Assembly: GCA_902778665.1 (NCBI GenBank)
Contig: CACYYN010000002.1
Span: forward strand, 59,111-123,110
DNA from: Oscillospiraceae bacterium
GTDB taxonomy: Bacteria > Bacillota > Clostridia > Oscillospirales > Oscillospiraceae
Length of the DNA: 64,000 nucleotides
Reading direction: 5' to 3'
Every line of letters begins with the position of its first letter. Position 1 is the first letter of the stretch. This document shows positions 36,122 to 56,556 of this stretch, piece after piece. The notes under the pieces are model-generated. The model had not been told where the DNA came from. It worked only from the letters and a program-made list of their open reading frames with translations, and searched no databases. Position numbers and translations under genes: made by a program.

Positions 36122-36316
36122 AGCCTGCTGCGGCTGTGTTTGCCGTTCGCGGCATTACAGCCCGTTAAACCCACATCTCTTATAAGGGATGCCGATTTGA
36201 GCCTGCGGATTGCAGGCCTCCCGGCTTTTGCTGGAAGAAGGAAGCGTGAAACAGGACTTAGGCGACCCACCTGCTACTTTTGTGCAGGTTATAATTGGGC
36301 TGGCACGGCACAGTGG
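36122..36316 (+). ncRNA. ssrS: Probable 6S RNA
   Basis: About 195 bases with the 6S architecture. A long-range closing stem pairs CTGTG...CCGT (about 36135-36147) with ACGG-CACAG (about 36305-36313), and AGCCC with GGGCT inside it, leaving a large central bubble. Internal hairpins include GCCG-TTCG-CGGC, CCTGC-GGATT-GCAGG and CCTGC...GCAGG, and the 3' side reads GACTTAGGCGACCCACCTGC, then GCAGGTTATA, recalling E. coli 6S. An 11-bp GC terminator follows at once. The 5' end is approximate. 6S RNA binds housekeeping RNA polymerase. Identification is from pattern memory, not a covariance search. Confidence 0.65.
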
Positions 36317-36317
36317 G

Positions 36318-36349
36318 ATCCCCCGGGAGCAATCCCGGGGGATTTTTTT
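36318..36349 (+). terminator. Strong intrinsic terminator of the 6S-like RNA
   Basis: Perfect 11-bp stem ATCCCCCGGGA / TCCCGGGGGAT (36318-36328 and 36333-36343), GCAA loop and a T7 tail. Confidence 0.9.
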
Positions 36350-38188: not shown

Positions 38189-38332
38189 AAAAATCCCCCG
38201 CCGGATTTCAGGCGGGGGTCATAAAAGCAAGTAGCTGCCGCCTCATCTTTCGTCACCGCCGGATTTAGCACCATGTCTTACGACTGGTTGCTGTGAGATC
38301 TACGGGCCGGTCCCTCCCTCACTCTTGATAAG
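38189..38332 (-). promoter_or_regulatory. SAM-I (S-box) riboswitch with terminator
   Basis: Minus-strand aptamer 38332-38242: P1 CTTATC / GATGAG, then AAGAGTGAGGGAGGGACCGGCCC, CAGCAACC and GGTGCTAAATCC in S-box order. The expression platform is an 8-bp terminator CCCCCGCC / GGCGGGGG (38218-38195) followed by ATTTTTG. SAM binding should stop transcription before metK. Confidence 0.95.
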
Positions 38333-38352
38333 GTGTTTAATTGTCGGGGTGT

Positions 38353-47445: not shown

Positions 47446-48129
47446 TTACTGCCTGATTCGTTTATCTGTACGGTGAACGATTGCCGAGCCTACGGCCTGA
47501 ATGATCTGAACAATGATAACAAGCAGGAGCACACACACCCAAGTAACATCGGGTTTGCTGCGCTGATGCCCATAAACAATTGCAATCTGGCCCAGTCCCG
47601 TGCCGCCGATGGTTGCTGCCATGGCTGAATAACCAAGGATTGTCACCATGGAGATAATCCCCCCGGTAATAAGGGACGGTTTTGCCTCCGGGATCAGAAC
47701 TTTTGTCACAATCTGGAAGTTGCTGCATCCGATGGCCTGGGCAGCCTCGATCACGCCGCTGTTAATCTCCTGCAGGGAGCTCTCTACCAGTCTCGCGATA
47801 TACGGTGTGGCAGCAATGACCAGCATGACAATCATGGCGTTATTCCCGAGAGAGGAGCCCACAACAAACTTGGCAACCGGGAGCATGGAAACCATCAGGA
47901 CGATAAAAGGGATCGACCGGAAAAAGTTCACCACGAGCCCTAGGATCCTGTTCAGCCAGGAAACCGGATGAAGACCGTCTCTCCCGGTCACATTCAGGAT
48001 AACACCGAGAGGCAGCCCAAGAACATAGGAAATCACCGTTGAAATGACCGTCATATAGATGGTCTCCCAGATTCCCTTCTGAATCAGCCCCGCATTCCAG
48101 AGCTTCATGAAAATGTCAGAGAAGTGCAT
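47446..48129 (-). CDS. metI: Methionine ABC transporter permease
   Basis: 227 residues, five helices, EAA motif INSGVIEAAQAIGCSNFQIVTKVLIPEAKPSL, and ATIGGTGLGQIAIVYGHQR near the end, typical of MetI. ATG 48129 lies five bases after the metN stop, with GGAGG inside the metN end. No binding protein gene is in this cluster, so it probably relies on one of the MetQ proteins encoded 2-7 kb away. Confidence 0.9.
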   Translation of the reverse strand: MHFSDIFMKLWNAGLIQKGIWETIYMTVISTVISYVLGLPLGVILNVTGRDGLHPVSWLNRILGLVVNFFRSIPFIVLMVSMLPVAKFVVGSSLGNNAMIVMLVIAATPYIARLVESSLQEINSGVIEAAQAIGCSNFQIVTKVLIPEAKPSLITGGIISMVTILGYSAMAATIGGTGLGQIAIVYGHQRSKPDVTWVCVLLLVIIVQIIQAVGSAIVHRTDKRIRQ

Positions 48130-48134
48130 ATGTT

Positions 48135-49124
48135 TTACTCCACCTCCGAAAAAGAGATCCCGCTGTTTTTCAGCCATGCTACGATTTTGTCAGCCTGATG
48201 AACATCCGTCGGAAGTTCAATAATCGTATAGCCGTAGATAACGCCGTCCAGTTCTTTGGTATTCGCCATCAGAATACTCACCGGTGCCTGACATGCGAGC
48301 ACCATTTCCGCTATATGCGGGCCGCATGTGGTCTGGCCATCAAAGCTGAGCCGCAGGCGCTTTCCTCCCTGCGTTTCCAGAACGGTTCTCTCCCGTGGGA
48401 AAATCAGGTTGCGGGCGATCTCAGAGCGAGGATTTGTAAAGACGTCGCTGACCTTCCCTTCCTCAGCAATATGACTGCGGTCAATCACTGCCACTCTGTC
48501 GCAGATATGGTCAACAACCTTCATTTCATGTGTAATAACCACAATCGTGACGCCGAGTTCCTCGTTGATTTTCCGCAGAAGGTCGAGGATAGCACGCGTG
48601 GTATTCGGATCAAGCGCAGAAGTTGCCTCATCACACAGGATGTACTTGGGATTTGTTGCAAGAGCCCTTGCGATTGCAACACGCTGCTTCTGTCCGCCGG
48701 ACAGTTGTGAGGGATAGGAGTTTTCCCTGTCACTCAGCCCCACCAGATCTAAAAGCTCACGTGCCCGTTTTTTTGCATCCTGCTTTCTGACGCCGGCGAT
48801 TTCCAGCGGGAAGCAGACGTTTCTCAGCACGGTTCTCTGCTCCAGCAGGTTAAACCCCTGGAAGATCATCCCGATGGATTGCCTGAGTTTCAGCAGTTCA
48901 CTGCGGCTGAGAGCGGTCAGACTTTTTCCATCAACCAGCACTTCTCCGGAAGTCGGTACCTCCAGAAGGTTGATACACCGGACAAGTGTGCTCTTCCCTG
49001 CTCCTGACAGCCCGATAATGCCGAATATCTCTCCGTCATGAATCGTCAGATTAATATCGTCTAAGGCGACAATTTCCTGGTCTGCTGTGCGGTAGGTTTT
49101 GCCAAGATGTTTTAATTCAATCAT
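48135..49124 (-). CDS. metN: Methionine ABC transporter ATP-binding protein
   Basis: 329 residues. Walker A GLSGAGKST, signature LSGGQKQRVAIARAL, Walker B ILCDEATSALDP, H-loop VITHE, and a C-terminal NIL domain (about 260-329) that binds methionine and inhibits transport when the cell is replete. Promoter at 49173-49200. No riboswitch or leader peptide is seen upstream, in contrast with the second cluster. Confidence 0.93.
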   Translation of the reverse strand: MIELKHLGKTYRTADQEIVALDDINLTIHDGEIFGIIGLSGAGKSTLVRCINLLEVPTSGEVLVDGKSLTALSRSELLKLRQSIGMIFQGFNLLEQRTVLRNVCFPLEIAGVRKQDAKKRARELLDLVGLSDRENSYPSQLSGGQKQRVAIARALATNPKYILCDEATSALDPNTTRAILDLLRKINEELGVTIVVITHEMKVVDHICDRVAVIDRSHIAEEGKVSDVFTNPRSEIARNLIFPRERTVLETQGGKRLRLSFDGQTTCGPHIAEMVLACQAPVSILMANTKELDGVIYGYTIIELPTDVHQADKIVAWLKNSGISFSEVE

Positions 49125-50122: not shown

Positions 50123-50935
50123 TTACTTTACTGCGACGATTCCCGCACCGGTCTGTTCATTGAAGGCATCTACTGCACCATCCTGCAGTGCAGCAACAAG
50201 TGCCAGAATTGCGGGATTTTCTTCATTGCCTTCCTTCACGGCAACAATGTTGCCATAGGTCTGTGCTGCATCACCGGATGCATCTTCAATAGCCAGTGCA
50301 TCGTCGATCTGCAGTCCGCCACCCAGAGCATAGTTGTAGTTGATGGCTGCGATGGTTCCCTTGTTGCTGTTTTTCAGCTGGGCCGGGATGGTCTCGGCGT
50401 TGACTGCGCTGATCTTATAACCGCCGTCATCTACAATGTCAAGAACCGTGATTCCGTTATCCACGCTGGCATCCTCAGGAAGAGTGATCAGGCCTTCCTG
50501 CTGGAGCAGGAGCAGGGCGCGCGTCCCGTTAGAGTCATCACCCGGGATAATAATTGTGGCCCCCTCGGGGAGATCGGAGAGAGATTCAATGCCGTTGGCA
50601 TAAATGCCCATGGGTTCATAGTGGATCTTACCGACACTGACAAGGTGTGTCCCGTTGGATTCGTTAAAGCTGTTCAGATACGGCGTGTGCTGGAAATAGT
50701 TTGCATCCAGATCGCCATCTTCAAGCGCAGTGTTCGGCAGGATATAATCATCATAAATCACGATCTGAAGATCGTAGCCCTCTTCCGCGAGACGATCCTT
50801 GACGAGCTCAAGAATCTCACCGTGAGGAGTGGAGCTTGCACCGACGACAATTGGTGTCAGGTCATCAGCAATTGCGAATGAGGCAAGGCCGAATACGAGG
50901 ATAACTGAGAGCAGAAGTACGAGTGTCTTTTTCAT
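50123..50935 (-). CDS. metQ: MetQ/NlpA family methionine-binding protein (canonical domain order)
   Basis: 270 residues. Signal peptide MKKTLVLLLSVILVFGLASF without a lipobox cysteine. Mature order is the normal one: VVGASSTPHGEIL...NYFQHTPYLNSF...VGKIHYEPMGIY...IIIPGDDSNGTRALLLLQ...AINYNYALGGGL. Binds methionine or a related amino acid. Last gene of the second cluster, after the M20 gene; two hairpins (50978-51002 and 51007-51025) lie in front of it. It serves as the internal reference that shows the other MetQ is permuted. Confidence 0.92.
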   Translation of the reverse strand: MKKTLVLLLSVILVFGLASFAIADDLTPIVVGASSTPHGEILELVKDRLAEEGYDLQIVIYDDYILPNTALEDGDLDANYFQHTPYLNSFNESNGTHLVSVGKIHYEPMGIYANGIESLSDLPEGATIIIPGDDSNGTRALLLLQQEGLITLPEDASVDNGITVLDIVDDGGYKISAVNAETIPAQLKNSNKGTIAAINYNYALGGGLQIDDALAIEDASGDAAQTYGNIVAVKEGNEENPAILALVAALQDGAVDAFNEQTGAGIVAVK

Positions 50936-51054: not shown

Positions 51055-52248
51055 TCAGCCCTGCTGTGCCTGCACAGCCTGTCTGTGCTCCGTTTTAATC
51101 TGTGCAAGCAGCTCCGGTTTCTCAAGGAGCTCAAGCGCTGTGAGGGCGAGTGCCTTCGCACCCAGTGCAATGGACTGAAGCCCCCTCTCGGAGCAGGCCG
51201 CTTCCCGCTTTTCAATGCTGTGGCCGGCTACGGGGACATCGCTGATGGCTATCATCGGCTGGATCACAGGGATCACCTGAGAGACATTGCCCACATCCGA
51301 TGAGCCGAGCGGCTGATGGCTGTCATTGACGGTTTCCCCAAGGGATTCAATACACTGCTGATAGACAGCGTCGAAGGATGGCGTCGGGACAATATTGTCC
51401 ACGAGATTTCGCTGGGTCGGTTCCAGAAGACCGGTGCATCCTGTCTGAAGTGCCGCTCCCTCCACAACACGCTCCAGCTTATGGTAGACATCCATCATGC
51501 GTTTTTTGGTAGCAGCGCGGACATAGAATTTCGCCTCCGTGTAGTCCGGAATAATATTGGGGGCATCCCCGCCCTTTGTGATAATCCCGTGGATTTTCAC
51601 ATCTCCCGGCAGTTGCTGCCGCATCAGCCCGATTGCGTTGAACACCAGAATCATGGCATCCAGTGCATTGATCCCGTCCTGCGGAGCGGAAGAAGCATGG
51701 GAGGCTTTCCCTTTAAATTCTATCCGAATCGGGGCGCAGGCGATTTCTTCATGTGTCAGTTCGTGATGATCGGAACCCGGATGTACACACAGTGCAGCAT
51801 CTACGTCCTGAAAGAAGCCTTCCCGAACGAAGCTGCCCTTTGCGCTTCCGTTTTCTCCGCCCTCTTCACCGGGCGTGCCGTAGACACGCACTTCACCGCC
51901 GACTTCATCCATTACCTGCTTTAATGCAGAGCCGGCGAGGGCTGAAGTTGCCCCGAAGAGGTTGTGCCCGCAGGCATGGCCGATTCCGTTCAGCGCATCA
52001 TACTCTGCCAGAAAGCAGAGCACCGGGCCCGGCCGGGAAGAGGCATACGTGGCGGTAAAGCCTGTCCTGTGCCCGGCCACGTCCACTTTTACATCAAACC
52101 CCTCCTTTTCAAGCTGCTCGGAAAGGGTTTTGCAGGCAAAAAACTCATAGTTGCTGACTTCCGGCCTGGCATGGATGTCCAGGGCTATCTGACGGTAGAT
52201 CGGATATTGCCGATCCACGTACTCCAGAATTAACTCTCGCTTCGACAT
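51055..52248 (-). CDS. M20 family metallopeptidase/amidohydrolase
   Basis: 397 residues. Zinc motifs: LAEYDALNGIGHACGHNLFG and TPGEEGGENGSAKG; SHASSAPQDGINALDAMI begins the dimerisation domain. Resembles AbgB/N-acyl-amino acid hydrolases. ATG 52248 has GGGAG seven bases upstream. Lies between metI and metQ, so it likely deacylates an imported N-acyl amino acid (for example N-acyl-methionine) or splits a dipeptide. Similar pairings of transporter and M20 enzyme occur for N-acetyl-Cys derivatives in Bacillus. Confidence 0.85.
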   Translation of the reverse strand: MSKRELILEYVDRQYPIYRQIALDIHARPEVSNYEFFACKTLSEQLEKEGFDVKVDVAGHRTGFTATYASSRPGPVLCFLAEYDALNGIGHACGHNLFGATSALAGSALKQVMDEVGGEVRVYGTPGEEGGENGSAKGSFVREGFFQDVDAALCVHPGSDHHELTHEEIACAPIRIEFKGKASHASSAPQDGINALDAMILVFNAIGLMRQQLPGDVKIHGIITKGGDAPNIIPDYTEAKFYVRAATKKRMMDVYHKLERVVEGAALQTGCTGLLEPTQRNLVDNIVPTPSFDAVYQQCIESLGETVNDSHQPLGSSDVGNVSQVIPVIQPMIAISDVPVAGHSIEKREAACSERGLQSIALGAKALALTALELLEKPELLAQIKTEHRQAVQAQQG

Positions 52249-52289
52249 GATCATCTCCCGGTAAAACTAGTGCAGACACAACTCTGCTG

Positions 52290-53024
52290 TCAATCGGCAG
52301 AGTTGGGGACATTGTTCTCCCCTCTGCGAATCTGGAACAGACTGCGGTTTGTAGTTCTCTTGGCGAGCATATTGCCCAGTGACTGCAGAACAAACGTAAC
52401 CGCAAGAAGCACAATCACACAGACGTTTACAATATCACTGTGGTTCTGATTCTGTCCGTAATTGATGGCAAAAGAACCGATCCCGCCTGCGCCGACCGCT
52501 CCGGCCATTGTTGTCAGGCCGATGAGACTGATCGCCGTGACCGTTGTCACACGGATCAGGTCAGGCAGTGCCTCGTGGAGATAGACCCGGAAGATCAGGC
52601 CGAAGGTTCCGCTGCCCATGCTGCGGGCTGCTTCGATTTTCCCCTCCTCCACGCCGGACAGAGCGACCTCCACCTGCCTGGTATAAAAAGGCACCGTACC
52701 GAAAACAAGAGGCAGAATTGCACCCTTAACGTTGATGGCCGTGCCCACCACCGCTCTGGTAAGCGGGATAAGAAAAATCAGCAGGATGATAAACGGAATG
52801 GACCGAAACACGTTGATGACCAGATTCGTAATCTGATATACGAAAATGTTCTGGCGGATACCGCCTTTTTTGGTGATCACCAGAATGACGCCGAAAAACA
52901 GCCCGATCGCGAAGGCGATCAGTCCGGCCTTCCAGAACATCTGGAAGGTGGCGCTGCAGGCAGCAAAGAATTTCGTTCGATACGTATACAAATAAGGAGC
53001 AACAGCCTTAATCCACTCTTCCAT
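52290..53024 (-). CDS. metI: Methionine ABC transporter permease, second copy
   Basis: 244 residues, five helices. EAA motif GVEEGKIEAARSMGSGTFGLIFRVYLHEALPDLI and AGAVGAGGIGSFAINYG. The start overlaps the metN stop by 17 bases, with GGAGG inside metN. Only moderately similar to the other MetI in this window, so the clusters are not a recent duplication. Confidence 0.9.
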   Translation of the reverse strand: MEEWIKAVAPYLYTYRTKFFAACSATFQMFWKAGLIAFAIGLFFGVILVITKKGGIRQNIFVYQITNLVINVFRSIPFIILLIFLIPLTRAVVGTAINVKGAILPLVFGTVPFYTRQVEVALSGVEEGKIEAARSMGSGTFGLIFRVYLHEALPDLIRVTTVTAISLIGLTTMAGAVGAGGIGSFAINYGQNQNHSDIVNVCVIVLLAVTFVLQSLGNMLAKRTTNRSLFQIRRGENNVPNSAD

Positions 53025-54087
53025 CCTTCAGCACCTCCGTTCTTACATGATTTTCTTCCAGAAAGCGGATGCCCGCTTCAATGCTCTTTGCATCGCCGCT
53101 GAGAATACCGATGGTTCCGCCCAGCGGATTGCCGTGCAGATATTCCACATTGGCTAGGATGATGTTCAGGTTCACCCCGTAGCGTTGTGCCATTGTGGTG
53201 AGGATATGCTCACCCACACAGTCTTTCTGGAAGATCAGTTTTGCCAGGATCTCCCCCTTCTTCACCTGCGTCAGGGAGGAGTTCTCCGCAATCAGCTTAT
53301 CAATCTTGCCGAGAGGCGAGGATGATGCGATGAATTTGCGGGTGATGGGTGCCTGCGGATCGGAAAAAATGTCGTAAACCGTTCCCTCTTCCACAATTTT
53401 GCCGCCTTCCATCACTGCCATGCGGTCGGCGATGGTTTTAATTACCGCCATCTCATGCGTAATAATCACGATGGTGATGCCAAGTTTTCGGTTCAGATCC
53501 CGCAGCAGGTTGAGAATAGACTCTGTGGCATCAGGGTCCAGTGCGGAGGTTGCCTCATCCGAAAGAAGAATCTTCGGGTTCGCCGCCAGGGCTCGTGCAA
53601 TCGCTACACGCTGCTTCTGCCCGCCGGAGAGCTGTGAGGGAAAGACATCTACCTTCTCCCTGAGGTCCACCAGATCCAAAAGCTCCAGCACCCGGCGGCG
53701 GATCTCCTCACGGGAGCGACCCGTATATTTGAGCGGATAGGCAATGTTGTCAAACACAGTGGAGCGCTCCAGAAGATTGAAGTGTTGGAAAATCATCCCG
53801 ATTCCGCGGCGCATCTGGTTCTGCTGACGAGCGGTCATCTTCTTCCCCTGATAGTATACCTCTCCACCGCGGGCTTCTATCCCTTCATATTCACCGATGG
53901 TGATCGTGCCCTCGTCGGGGATTTCCAGAAGGTTCAGGCAGCGTACCAGAGAGCTTTTCCCCGCCCCCGAATATCCTGCAATGCCGTAAACGGTACCGTC
54001 TTCGATGGAAAAGGAAACGCCGTCCAGGGCGGTAACGTCTCCGCTTTTCAGGTGGAATGTTTTTCTGAGATTTTTAACTTCAATCAT
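53008..54087 (-). CDS. metN: Methionine ABC transporter ATP-binding protein, second copy
   Basis: 359 residues. Walker A GYSGAGKSS (Ser in place of Thr), signature LSGGQKQRVAIARAL, Walker B ILLSDEATSALDP and H-loop, with a C-terminal NIL domain (about 285-359). About 20 residues of insertion (EYEGIEARGGEVYYQGKKMT) in the N-half. ATG 54087 is chosen from CGGAG eight bases upstream. A long hairpin separates it from the permuted metQ. Confidence 0.92.
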   Translation of the reverse strand: MIEVKNLRKTFHLKSGDVTALDGVSFSIEDGTVYGIAGYSGAGKSSLVRCLNLLEIPDEGTITIGEYEGIEARGGEVYYQGKKMTARQQNQMRRGIGMIFQHFNLLERSTVFDNIAYPLKYTGRSREEIRRRVLELLDLVDLREKVDVFPSQLSGGQKQRVAIARALAANPKILLSDEATSALDPDATESILNLLRDLNRKLGITIVIITHEMAVIKTIADRMAVMEGGKIVEEGTVYDIFSDPQAPITRKFIASSSPLGKIDKLIAENSSLTQVKKGEILAKLIFQKDCVGEHILTTMAQRYGVNLNIILANVEYLHGNPLGGTIGILSGDAKSIEAGIRFLEENHVRTEVLKDGRVD

Positions 54088-54128
54088 GTGGGACTCCGGA
54101 ATATACCTTTTTGATTTGATAGGGTGAA

Positions 54129-54181: not shown

Positions 54182-55087
54182 TTATGCGACCTTGCCGGCG
54201 GCTTCCTTGAGTGCATCCAGAGAATCAAACTTCTCGGAATAAAGTGTCAGAGGAGCGATAAGGGTATCGCCGATAGCTACGAGGTCATAGCCGTTGGCAG
54301 TCGCGTCATTATTCAGATATGCCTTGTGCTGGAAGGCGTTGAGGTCAATCTCGCCGGAATTGAGAGCTTCGTTGGGAAGGTTGTAGGCATCAAACTCAAC
54401 GAGTTCAATGTAGATGCCGGCATTCTCGTCATCAAGGACCTTCTGCACGGCCTGCCACTGCTCGTTGCTGGCTCCGCACACGCCAACCTTCACAATCTGC
54501 TTGCCTTCTTTGGGAGATTCATAAGTGATGATGTCAAAAGCTTCCTCTTCAGTCAGGGTGATATTCTCATCATAATCAAATGCAGGAATCTGTGCTTCCT
54601 TTCTGATAACAATCAGAAACTCTGCAACAAGCTGTGTCTGATAAGCTTCAACAATCTTCTTGTATACTTCATTGTTTTCTTCTCCGGCACGGGCAGCTAT
54701 CACGTTGATATAGGGGTTGTCACTGCCTTCGCTCTGCTTCTCGCTGATAAGGCCCTGGGAAGGAACGAGACCGTAAGGTACGGAATAGGTGCTGTTGATG
54801 GCCGATGCGGCAAAATCACCAAGCGTAGCAGGGAGCGTGTTTGCCTGGACAGGTACAATTTCAATGTCATAGATATTGCCGGTGATATCCGCAATCTCCG
54901 GGGTATAGCCTGCTGCAGGGTCTACCGTAATCAGGCCGGCAGTCTCCAGAAGTTTGATGCCGCGGGAAAGGTTGGTTCCGTCATCCGGAATACCGATCTG
55001 AAGGGTCTCTGCAAATGCGGAGCCTGCGAGGGAAAGAACGAGGACTGCAGCGAGGACAAGTGCAAAAATCTTATTGGACTTTTTCAT
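54182..55087 (-). CDS. Circularly permuted MetQ/NlpA-type substrate-binding protein
   Basis: 301 residues. Signal peptide 1-26 (no lipobox Cys). Residues 27-170 match the C-terminal half of MetQ (IGIPDDGTNLSRGIKLLETA, SAINSTYSVPYG, NVIAARAGEENNEVYKKIVE, IPAF). A 27-residue acidic linker (171-197) joins residues 198-301, which match the N-terminal half (VKVGVCGASNEQWQAV, LPNEALNSGEIDLNAFQHKAYLNN-type) and end SLDALKEAAGKVA, exactly where canonical MetQ runs into its IIIP strand. All segments are present once, in swapped order. First gene of the operon, start set by AAGGAG ten bases before ATG 55087. Confidence 0.88.
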   Translation of the reverse strand: MKKSNKIFALVLAAVLVLSLAGSAFAETLQIGIPDDGTNLSRGIKLLETAGLITVDPAAGYTPEIADITGNIYDIEIVPVQANTLPATLGDFAASAINSTYSVPYGLVPSQGLISEKQSEGSDNPYINVIAARAGEENNEVYKKIVEAYQTQLVAEFLIVIRKEAQIPAFDYDENITLTEEEAFDIITYESPKEGKQIVKVGVCGASNEQWQAVQKVLDDENAGIYIELVEFDAYNLPNEALNSGEIDLNAFQHKAYLNNDATANGYDLVAIGDTLIAPLTLYSEKFDSLDALKEAAGKVA

Positions 55088-55167: not shown

Positions 55168-55263
55168 GGGTCACCTTGTCTGCGAACATCGCAAGCCCGG
55201 CATTCGGTCTGTCACCCGGCTGATATGAAAGTGCGTTTTCTTTCTAATGATCGTTTTTTCCAT
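55168..55263 (-). CDS. Possible 31-codon ORF in the met leader
   Basis: Begins MEKTIIRKKTHFHISR just after the attenuator, with AAAAGGAG about nine bases upstream and a TGA stop at 55168. Composition is unremarkable (two Met). It could be a translated leader element or chance; no homology is recognised. Confidence 0.25.
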
Positions 55264-55282: not shown

Positions 55283-55321
55283 CAAAAAATAAAACCGGGA
55301 TGCCTGCTCTGGCTTCCCGGT
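55283..55321 (-). terminator. Attenuator terminator in the metQ leader
   Basis: Minus-strand stem ACCGGGA / TCCCGGT (55321-55315 with 55300-55294), inner GCC / GGC, followed by TTTATTTTTT. It lies 27 bases after the leader peptide stop and 195 bases before the permuted metQ. Confidence 0.85.
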
Positions 55322-55348
55322 CTGGAATTCTGAAAGAATCAAACTGGA

Positions 55349-55450
55349 TTAGTAAGCTGACAGGCAGGTATGAAGGGCGCGGCACATCATGCACATGTAC
55401 ATCCACATGCGCATTGCAAACATCATCATGGTGCTGCGTCTGCTTGCCAT
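55349..55450 (-). CDS. Methionine-rich leader peptide (attenuation)
   Basis: 33 codons, 10 of them Met, with the run MMMFAMRMWMYMCMM (9 Met in 15). AAGGAG lies 10 bases before the ATG. Transcribed from a TTGACA/TATACT promoter 40-70 bases upstream and followed by a terminator, then the methionine-type transporter operon. A ribosome stalled on the Met codons would leave 55366-55360 free to pair with 55307-55301, which contain part of the terminator stem, and so favour readthrough. This is the classic anatomy of translation-dependent attenuation, with Met as the sensed amino acid. The family is not known to me. Confidence 0.8.
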   Translation of the reverse strand: MASRRSTMMMFAMRMWMYMCMMCRALHTCLSAY

Positions 55451-55489
55451 ATCCTGCGAACTCCTTATCCGATTGATTTAGTGATTTAA

Positions 55490-55518
55490 AGTATAGACTC
55501 ACGATCGCCGTTTGTCAA
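55490..55518 (-). promoter_or_regulatory. Promoter of the met leader and metQ-metN-metI operon
   Basis: Minus strand TTGACA (55518-55513), 17-base spacer, TATACT (55495-55490). Transcription should start near 55483, giving a leader of about 395 bases before the permuted metQ. Confidence 0.8.
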
Positions 55519-55656: not shown

Positions 55657-56556
55657 TTATACCGGGTTCATGTGAATCATAACATGCTTGATTTCAGGGA
55701 ATTGTTCCTCCAACGCATCATGGATTCTTTCAGCTGTGCTATGGGCCTCTTCCAAAGTAAGAGAACCATCCATGCTGATCTCCAGATCCACATAAACCTT
55801 TCGACCAAATTCCCTCGTTCGGAGCAGATCAATCCGCTTTACCTCTTCGCAGGAACTCACACAGTTGCGGATTCTTTCCTCCATCTCGTCACTGCTCCGG
55901 TGATCAATCAACTTCTCCATCGCCTCACGGAAGATGTCATAAGCAGATTTCAGAATAAATGCACAGATAACAAGGCCGGCAGCAGCATCCATACTCCGGA
56001 TGCCCATTCTCGCTCCGGCAATACCCGCCAGAGAACCGATGGAAGAAAGAGAGTCGGAACGATGATGCAACGCTTCTGCCTGCAGCACCTCTGAGTTGAG
56101 GGCCTTGGCACGCCTCAACGTCATCCAGTACATGCTCTCCTTGACCAGGATAGACACGATTGCCGCTGCAAGAGCAATTCCTCCCGGGACAGGCGCATCC
56201 CGGTAGCTTCCGGAAACCAGTGTTTCCACGGAAGAAGAACCCATGGCAAGCCCGGCCACCAGAAGAATCACCGCCAGAAGGATGGATGCAATGCTCTCCA
56301 AGCGCTCATGACCGTAAGGGTGATCCCGGTCTTCCTTTTTTTCAGAAATCCGGACACCGATGACCACAATGATCCCGCCGGCTATATCGGACGCAGAGTG
56401 CAGAGCATCGCTGATCATTGCTCTGGAGTGGCCGACAATACCCGCAACCAGTTTAAAGCCAGCCAACAACAGATTGCCTGCTATGCCGATCCCGGAAACC
56501 TTCTCCACGGAAGACTGATAGCTTCTGTCCTCCGGTCTTTTTGTGATACAGGACAT
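55657..56556 (-). CDS. Cation diffusion facilitator (CDF) family transporter
   Basis: 299 residues, six helices, metal-site residues in ISDALHSASD and LHHRSDSLSS, and a C-terminal cytoplasmic domain ending VMIHMNPV. Exports divalent metals such as Zn, Mn or Fe by proton antiport; metal not assignable. GAGGAGG precedes the ATG. Upstream, 33 bases away, is the CmpB-like gene on the same strand. Confidence 0.9.
   Translation of the reverse strand: MSCITKRPEDRSYQSSVEKVSGIGIAGNLLLAGFKLVAGIVGHSRAMISDALHSASDIAGGIIVVIGVRISEKKEDRDHPYGHERLESIASILLAVILLVAGLAMGSSSVETLVSGSYRDAPVPGGIALAAAIVSILVKESMYWMTLRRAKALNSEVLQAEALHHRSDSLSSIGSLAGIAGARMGIRSMDAAAGLVICAFILKSAYDIFREAMEKLIDHRSSDEMEERIRNCVSSCEEVKRIDLLRTREFGRKVYVDLEISMDGSLTLEEAHSTAERIHDALEEQFPEIKHVMIHMNPV

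Follow-up and report, generated by a model that had tools for sequence, protein, structure and literature searches.

The locus examined herein raises the question of whether a methionine transporter operon can be controlled by a ribosome that stalls on the Met codons of a short ORF in front of it. The described transcription attenuators of methionine genes in Firmicutes are S-box and T-box RNAs, and a leader peptide that reads Met codons would seem a poor sensor, because the same starvation should lower initiator tRNA. A first-pass annotation of the window (the whole stretch of DNA that was analysed, 64,000 nucleotides) had proposed a Met leader-peptide attenuator upstream of metQNI. On the minus strand, the locus runs from a promoter through an SD, the leader ORF, a hairpin with its U-run and a second small ORF into metQ, metN, metI, an amidohydrolase gene and a second metQ, and the region before the first metQ contains the following features.

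55490..55518 (-), sigma-70-type promoter, TTGACA-17-TATACT, 11/12 consensus matches
55453..55466 (-), leader ribosome site, with the SD AAGGAG at 55466-55461
55349..55450 (-), Met leader ORF of 33 codons, which reads MASRRSTMMMFAMRMWMYMCMMCRALHTCLSAY
55385..55429 (-), putative control codons 8-22 with 9 Met, read from the sequence and kept in relatives
55354..55366 (-), segment 2 (ORF end), predicted to pair with the terminator arm and loop or with the ribosome site
55301..55315 (-), segment 3 (terminator inner arm and loop), the putative antiterminator partner from duplex prediction, covariation and segment swaps
55284..55322 (-), intrinsic terminator, hairpin 55322-55293 followed by a U-run
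55171..55263 (-), second small ORF with an SD, between the terminator and metQ

Reading 55450-55349 on the minus strand returned the ORF that had been described, with 10 Met codons, 9 of these within the 15 codons 8-22, and the coordinates given for it held on re-examination of the sequence. Among the 2404 stop-to-stop segments of the window, the leader ORF alone exceeded 6 Met in 18 codons, and no segment of this kind occurred in 30 dinucleotide-shuffled windows (1.92 Mb), so that the Met density is not a product of chance. A plasmid search returned no match to the leader. The promoter claimed before the ORF is present, but shuffles of the 651-base region give 1.3 such sites on average; the ribosome site was likewise found where expected. 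Folding confirmed a terminator shortly after the leader stop, with a hairpin of -19.3 kcal/mol that starts 26 nt past the stop codon. This hairpin has an internal mismatch, and a simple terminator scanner, which reported zero sites at the leader region, missed it.

The genes behind the leader had been read as a methionine-type transporter operon, and profile searches bore this out, with metQ-, metN- and metI-like genes identified by best hits and the NlpA family and the NIL domain over cut-off.

54182..55087 (-), metQ-like NlpA substrate-binding lipoprotein, apparently circularly permuted; MetQ best NCBIfam hit, below cut-off, and PF03180 over cut-off
53008..54090 (-), metN-like ATPase with a NIL domain; NIL over cut-off, MetN best hit, below NCBIfam cut-off
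52290..53024 (-), metI-like permease; MetI best hit, below NCBIfam cut-off
51055..52254 (-), amidohydrolase; TIGR01891 over cut-off
50123..50935 (-), second metQ-like lipoprotein, usual domain order; NCBIfam and NlpA family matches
48135..49124 (-), second metN-like gene
47446..48177 (-), likely permease gene after the second metN

The first MetQ of the operon looks circularly permuted by its profile matches: its residues 30-170 align to positions 99-236, in the C-terminal part of the NlpA family, and its residues 195-297 to positions 29-131, in the N-terminal part of the MetQ profile. The MetQ behind one related leader, L125, shows a similar shift (residues 34-171 on 129-268). At the place of the second small ORF, L151, L171 and L172 have a small ORF as well, with a common stretch like GRAKDRM or SRAKDRM, and none was seen in L110 or L160. 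Upstream of the second metN-like gene of the window no ORF segment with at least 4 Met in 18 codons was found, and this gene and the likely permease gene had no Rfam match over cut-off. The metA family (PF04204) was matched in 92 of 120 genomes of the family; no match was found in the window's own genome (G000, 84% complete) or in two further members of the genus (G100 and G112). Methionine auxotrophy is possible in these three, and import may therefore be important to them.

Relatives of the leader were collected by several searches. A DNA search of 60 relatives yielded nine further loci with 9 or 10 Met in 15 residues, and a 20-base pattern from the peptide core matched in 30 of 102 genomes of the genus; among its matches L037 and L053 were not leaders, and by genome the match in G111 and one of three in G075 were not. 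A profile of 24 peptides matched in 64 of the 102 genomes, in 62 of which a Met-rich ORF lay at the match (G111 was without one and G003 was left out). The remaining 38 genomes had no profile match, which counts against the attenuator, and many of these MAGs are incomplete. Across 400 genomes of the family the profile matched in 16, spread over 10 of 106 genera, with no Met-rich ORF at the match in G288. A stricter pattern run on a collection of 84,980 species returned 29 stretches, which were labelled Oscillospiraceae, Ruminococcaceae, Clostridiales, Clostridia or Eubacteriales, and one Candidatus Limivicinus. Among 394 genomes of the order, the profile matched in the window's own genome alone, and leaders outside the family were found solely by reading upstream of metN.

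Leaders were extracted from L090-L172, that is, from the profile, pattern or DNA-pattern matches. L134, L163, L164 and L165 had no Met-rich ORF, L169 (6 Met) was dropped, and removal of duplicates on 100 bases left 75 distinct Met-rich leaders in the window's genus and family. Their start codons were assigned automatically; L105, L106, L138 and L162 look N-terminally cut and L166 too long. In the 24 profile peptides the invariant columns are six Met besides the start, one Cys and one Ala, some of which the searches favoured.

Conservation of a Met-rich short ORF before metQ had been named as a check on the proposal, and loss of the Met run or of the terminator in relatives as one outcome that would refute it. 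Both are kept in 75/75 leaders. A terminator-like hairpin lies 13-43 nt past the stop codon in every one of them, and all 75 have a hairpin of -14 kcal/mol or lower, compared with 3 of 225 shuffles. The leader is followed by metN in 63 cases, by metQ in 10 and by metA in one; in the last case the next gene is unreadable (the contig of L104 ends before it). Nine next genes were left unclassed by the script, of which L132 (metA) and L125 (metQ) were checked by profile and seven by eye (L126, L128, L129 and L160 as metQ; L157, L167 and L168 as metN). Because the leaders were picked by their Met run, and not by the terminator or the next gene, these two are independent tests.

The leader before metA (NF047918 over cut-off) is one place under two names, L132 and L250, and it links these leaders to methionine as such, beyond a transporter whose name rests on homology. 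Apart from the known L250, a further 78 stretches upstream of metA in the family were scanned, and one of them had a leader (L245, in a second genus); 29 of the 78 came from 30 loci whose start had been located, and the other 49 were fetched stretches, of which some are short. A scan upstream of metN at 29 loci of the order gave L255 and L264, in two other families. The peptides of L245, L250, L255 and L264 are unlike those of the main family and Met-rich, and each of these leaders has an SD and a terminator 12-31 nt past its stop codon. T-boxes were found at 2 of 20 metN loci of the order; control of metN therefore changes hands.

Antitermination had been attributed to pairing of 55366-55360 with 55307-55301. 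The pairing exists in the window (7 pairs, one G-U, with a longer duplex that adds 55357-55354 with 55315-55312) and it covaries in relatives, but in the window alone it is no better than in shuffles (p 0.31). In the same shuffle test, run on 45 non-redundant leaders of the 75, 11 reached p <=0.05, and since the tests of single sequences are mostly not significant, no argument can be drawn from single sequences.

Covariation was examined in alignment A2, which holds 34 of 47 leaders, 13 divergent ones having been left out. The terminator is paired in 93.5% of cells, with a covariation of 0.458 vs 0.193 after shuffling. When all column pairs were scanned, unguided, for covarying 5-pair helices, the top score (up to 2.86) fell to the terminator and the next (2.22) to pairing of the ORF end with the terminator loop and inner arm; a helix between the Met codons near GATGG and the final codons of the ORF was third (1.00), ahead of a next, chance-like entry at 0.92. 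Covariation of the terminator-loop bases with the ORF end has no evident cause other than such pairing. Over its 11 pairs, the putative antiterminator is 75.9% paired (85-87% in the two outer helices and 63.5% in the inner one), and its covariation of 0.383 compares with 0.254 for shuffled alignments and at most 0.183 for slid copies. Pairs changed on both sides numbered 6 vs 6.3 shuffled, and neither these nor further pair types were above shuffling. The helix of Met codons with the ORF end is 76.8% paired, with a covariation of 0.297 vs 0.208 shuffled and at most 0.176 slid; its pairs changed on both sides were not above shuffling. As its scan score barely tops the chance-like entry, this helix rests on the covariation count and on the segment swap described below. 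RNAalifold also drew a hairpin inside the Met run, at A2 columns 74-97 of the 34 aligned leaders.

An alignment-independent segment-swap test compared the pairing energy of each leader's own segments with that of segments exchanged among 42 leaders (the 45 minus L105, L162 and L166, a set also used for the ribosome-site and folding tests) over 20000 permutations. Three combinations were stronger within leaders, each with 0/20000 permutations reaching the observed value: segment 2 with the terminator (-11.9 own vs -9.4 cross), the ribosome site with segment 2 (-11.4 vs -8.6), and the Met codons with the last codons (-11.1 vs -8.5). Unrelated combinations (Met codons with segment 2, ribosome site with terminator, ribosome site with Met codons) gave no signal, and overlapping ones gave a partial signal (ribosome site with last codons 9/20000; last codons with terminator 814/20000). 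Of the control segments in the ribosome-site test, that at -39 to -18 had no signal and that at +3 to +24 had 141/5000, while the segment at +24 to +45, with 0/5000, corresponds to the Met-codon pairing.

Two further partners of the ORF end come out of these comparisons and were absent from the first-pass account: the ribosome site and, for many relatives, the Met codons. Unexpectedly, the SD of the leader can, by predicted pairing, be closed by the end of its own ORF. In the window this duplex would join the ORF end to 55463-55459 and 55457-55453 at -12.4 kcal/mol (GAGUU-C-GCAGG with CCUGU-C-AGCUU), using much the same bases as the antiterminator. The Met-codon helix, a putative protector pairing, is weak in the window (-4.9) and supported in relatives.

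Folding of alternative structures, another of the checks proposed at the outset, was done for each state of the ribosome. With a ribosome placed on the Met run, the antiterminator formed in 34 of 42 leaders; the 8 without it count against the attenuator. With no ribosome, and with the polymerase before the end of the 3' arm, the ribosome-site pairing formed in 35/42 and the antiterminator in 18/42. The window in this state showed the ribosome-site pairing together with part of the antiterminator, which again counts against the attenuator. The complete leader formed the terminator in 42/42, as did the leader with a ribosome at the stop codon, where the upstream RNA is masked by construction. 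The state-by-state folds suggest that a leader stalled on Met would be on, and that one finished or not started would be off.

The comparison shows a conserved ORF with a Met run, a terminator, a covarying antiterminator, two alternative pairings and a fitting gene context, and the reading as a Met leader-peptide attenuator gains support from the 75 leaders and from the methionine genes that follow wherever the next gene can be read. Very probably, then, this is a ribosome-mediated transcription attenuator with methionine control codons that senses charged tRNA-Met. From its parts we infer translation of the leader, stalling, Met-dependent readthrough and an order of events. When Met-tRNA is sufficient, the ribosome would pass the Met codons and reach the stop codon, where it would make segment 2 unavailable to the terminator, and RNA polymerase would halt at the hairpin. 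A shortage of charged elongator tRNA-Met would stall the ribosome in the Met run and leave segment 2 free to pair with the inner arm and loop of the terminator, so that transcription would enter metQNI. In an untranslated leader, segment 2 may pair with the leader's own ribosome site, giving termination by default, toward which pairing of the last codons with the Met codons would also work in many relatives. An off state without translation may matter for methionine in particular, as starvation would also lower initiator tRNA; the same shortage should slow initiation on the leader and work against induction, a point that counts against the attenuator.

Proteobacterial amino acid leader-peptide attenuators are those of trp, his, leu, phe and thr. 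They have, as here, a short ORF rich in codons for the regulated amino acid, a terminator after it and an antiterminator exclusive with that terminator, and their protector pairing has a putative counterpart in the Met-codon helix; here, in contrast, the control codons would be those of methionine and the ORF end can also pair with the leader's ribosome site. In the E. coli trp leader the ribosome site is reportedly masked by downstream RNA as well. Leu/BCAA leader peptides in S. aureus and Listeria are said to use the same ribosome-mediated attenuation in Firmicutes, for other amino acids and genes. His leader peptides before hisS/hisZ in Firmicutes (PMC2965389) follow the same ribosome-mediated attenuation in the same phylum, with a different amino acid and different genes. 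In an Actinobacteria survey, Cys leader peptides were described, which also concern a sulfur amino acid but precede cysteine genes, and no conserved RNA element was reported there before methionine operons (PMC1262725).

At the locus, a short ORF that has a ribosome site and is rich in codons for one amino acid is followed by an intrinsic terminator and then by the first gene of an operon that concerns the same amino acid; metA stands behind such leaders in two genera. An antiterminator exclusive with the terminator emerges from comparison of the relatives and is not significant in the window alone. On these features the Met leader would be classed as a leader-peptide attenuator. No earlier description of a Met leader peptide was found in a library of open-access papers, and because the search was limited to such papers, the earlier suggestion that it is undescribed, and with it the novelty of methionine sensing of this kind, is provisional. 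The conservation and covariation of the Met leader indicate that stalling on Met codons is probably used after all. The leader provides an annotation rule for small ORFs of the family, gives separate support to the view that metQNI is specific for Met, and raises the question of how a leader is initiated during Met shortage.

The reading that fares best beside this one, which we regard as tentative, is a leader for both sulfur amino acids, in which ribosomes would stall at Met and at interspersed Cys codons and shortage of either would induce the transporter. The Met runs of 43 leaders contain 367 Met in 602 residues, and 75 of the other 235 are Cys, all TGC, vs 1.2% Cys in the downstream proteins. 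Cys also makes up 6 of 16 non-Met run residues in L245, L255 and L264, which were found apart from the profile. However, NGC accounts for 131 of the 176 C-ending non-Met run codons, and the Cys codons could reflect selection for GCATG at the RNA level; the hairpin predicted within the Met run uses GCATG bases, with few double changes, and the last Cys is replaced by Arg in several relatives. A broader and equally tentative reading would join these points: the leader would sense Met and Cys by stalling, the ribosome-site lock would answer methionine's initiation problem (failed initiation would leave the SD closed and termination as the default), and the system, arisen more than once in the order, would replace S-box/T-box control of metNIQ, and in places of metA, in one family. 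If so, only stalling in elongation would open the operon.

It is improbable that the leader is an arrest peptide, whose nascent chain, inside the ribosome tunnel, would itself sense a ligand such as Met or SAM in place of stalling at codons. Within the family the residues that follow the Met run (RAQK or the like) show partial conservation, but the R, Q and K positions vary, part of the peptide tail overlies segment 2, whose bases pair elsewhere, and leaders of other genera and families keep the Met density and not the peptide sequence. Very improbable is a small protein that binds a metal such as copper and whose terminator ends its own transcript. Its richness in Met and Cys would suit this role, as would the cation efflux gene upstream of the leader at 55657-56556, but a gene of Met transport or synthesis comes next in 74/75 leaders, and a plain gene would have no need for an ORF end that pairs both with the terminator and with the ribosome site of that ORF.

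S-box (SAM-I) and T-box RNAs attenuate transcription of Firmicute methionine genes, as the Met leader would, but do so without requiring a leader ORF, and covariance models detected neither at the leader. The one S-box (RF00162) match of the genome is that which had been placed elsewhere in the window, before metK, and T-box (RF00230) matches number four in the genome (two over cut-off), none of them in the window.

38240..38334 (-), S-box (SAM riboswitch), covariance-model match; the ORF after it is presumably MetK

Control of the operon by an S-box, T-box or other described riboswitch, with the leader ORF incidental, is extremely improbable: such elements occur elsewhere in this genome and at the two metN loci of the order noted above, but at the leader no Rfam family was over cut-off and the three weak matches (E 1.4-3) were far below it. 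A 6S RNA match over cut-off lies at 36125-36323 (+).
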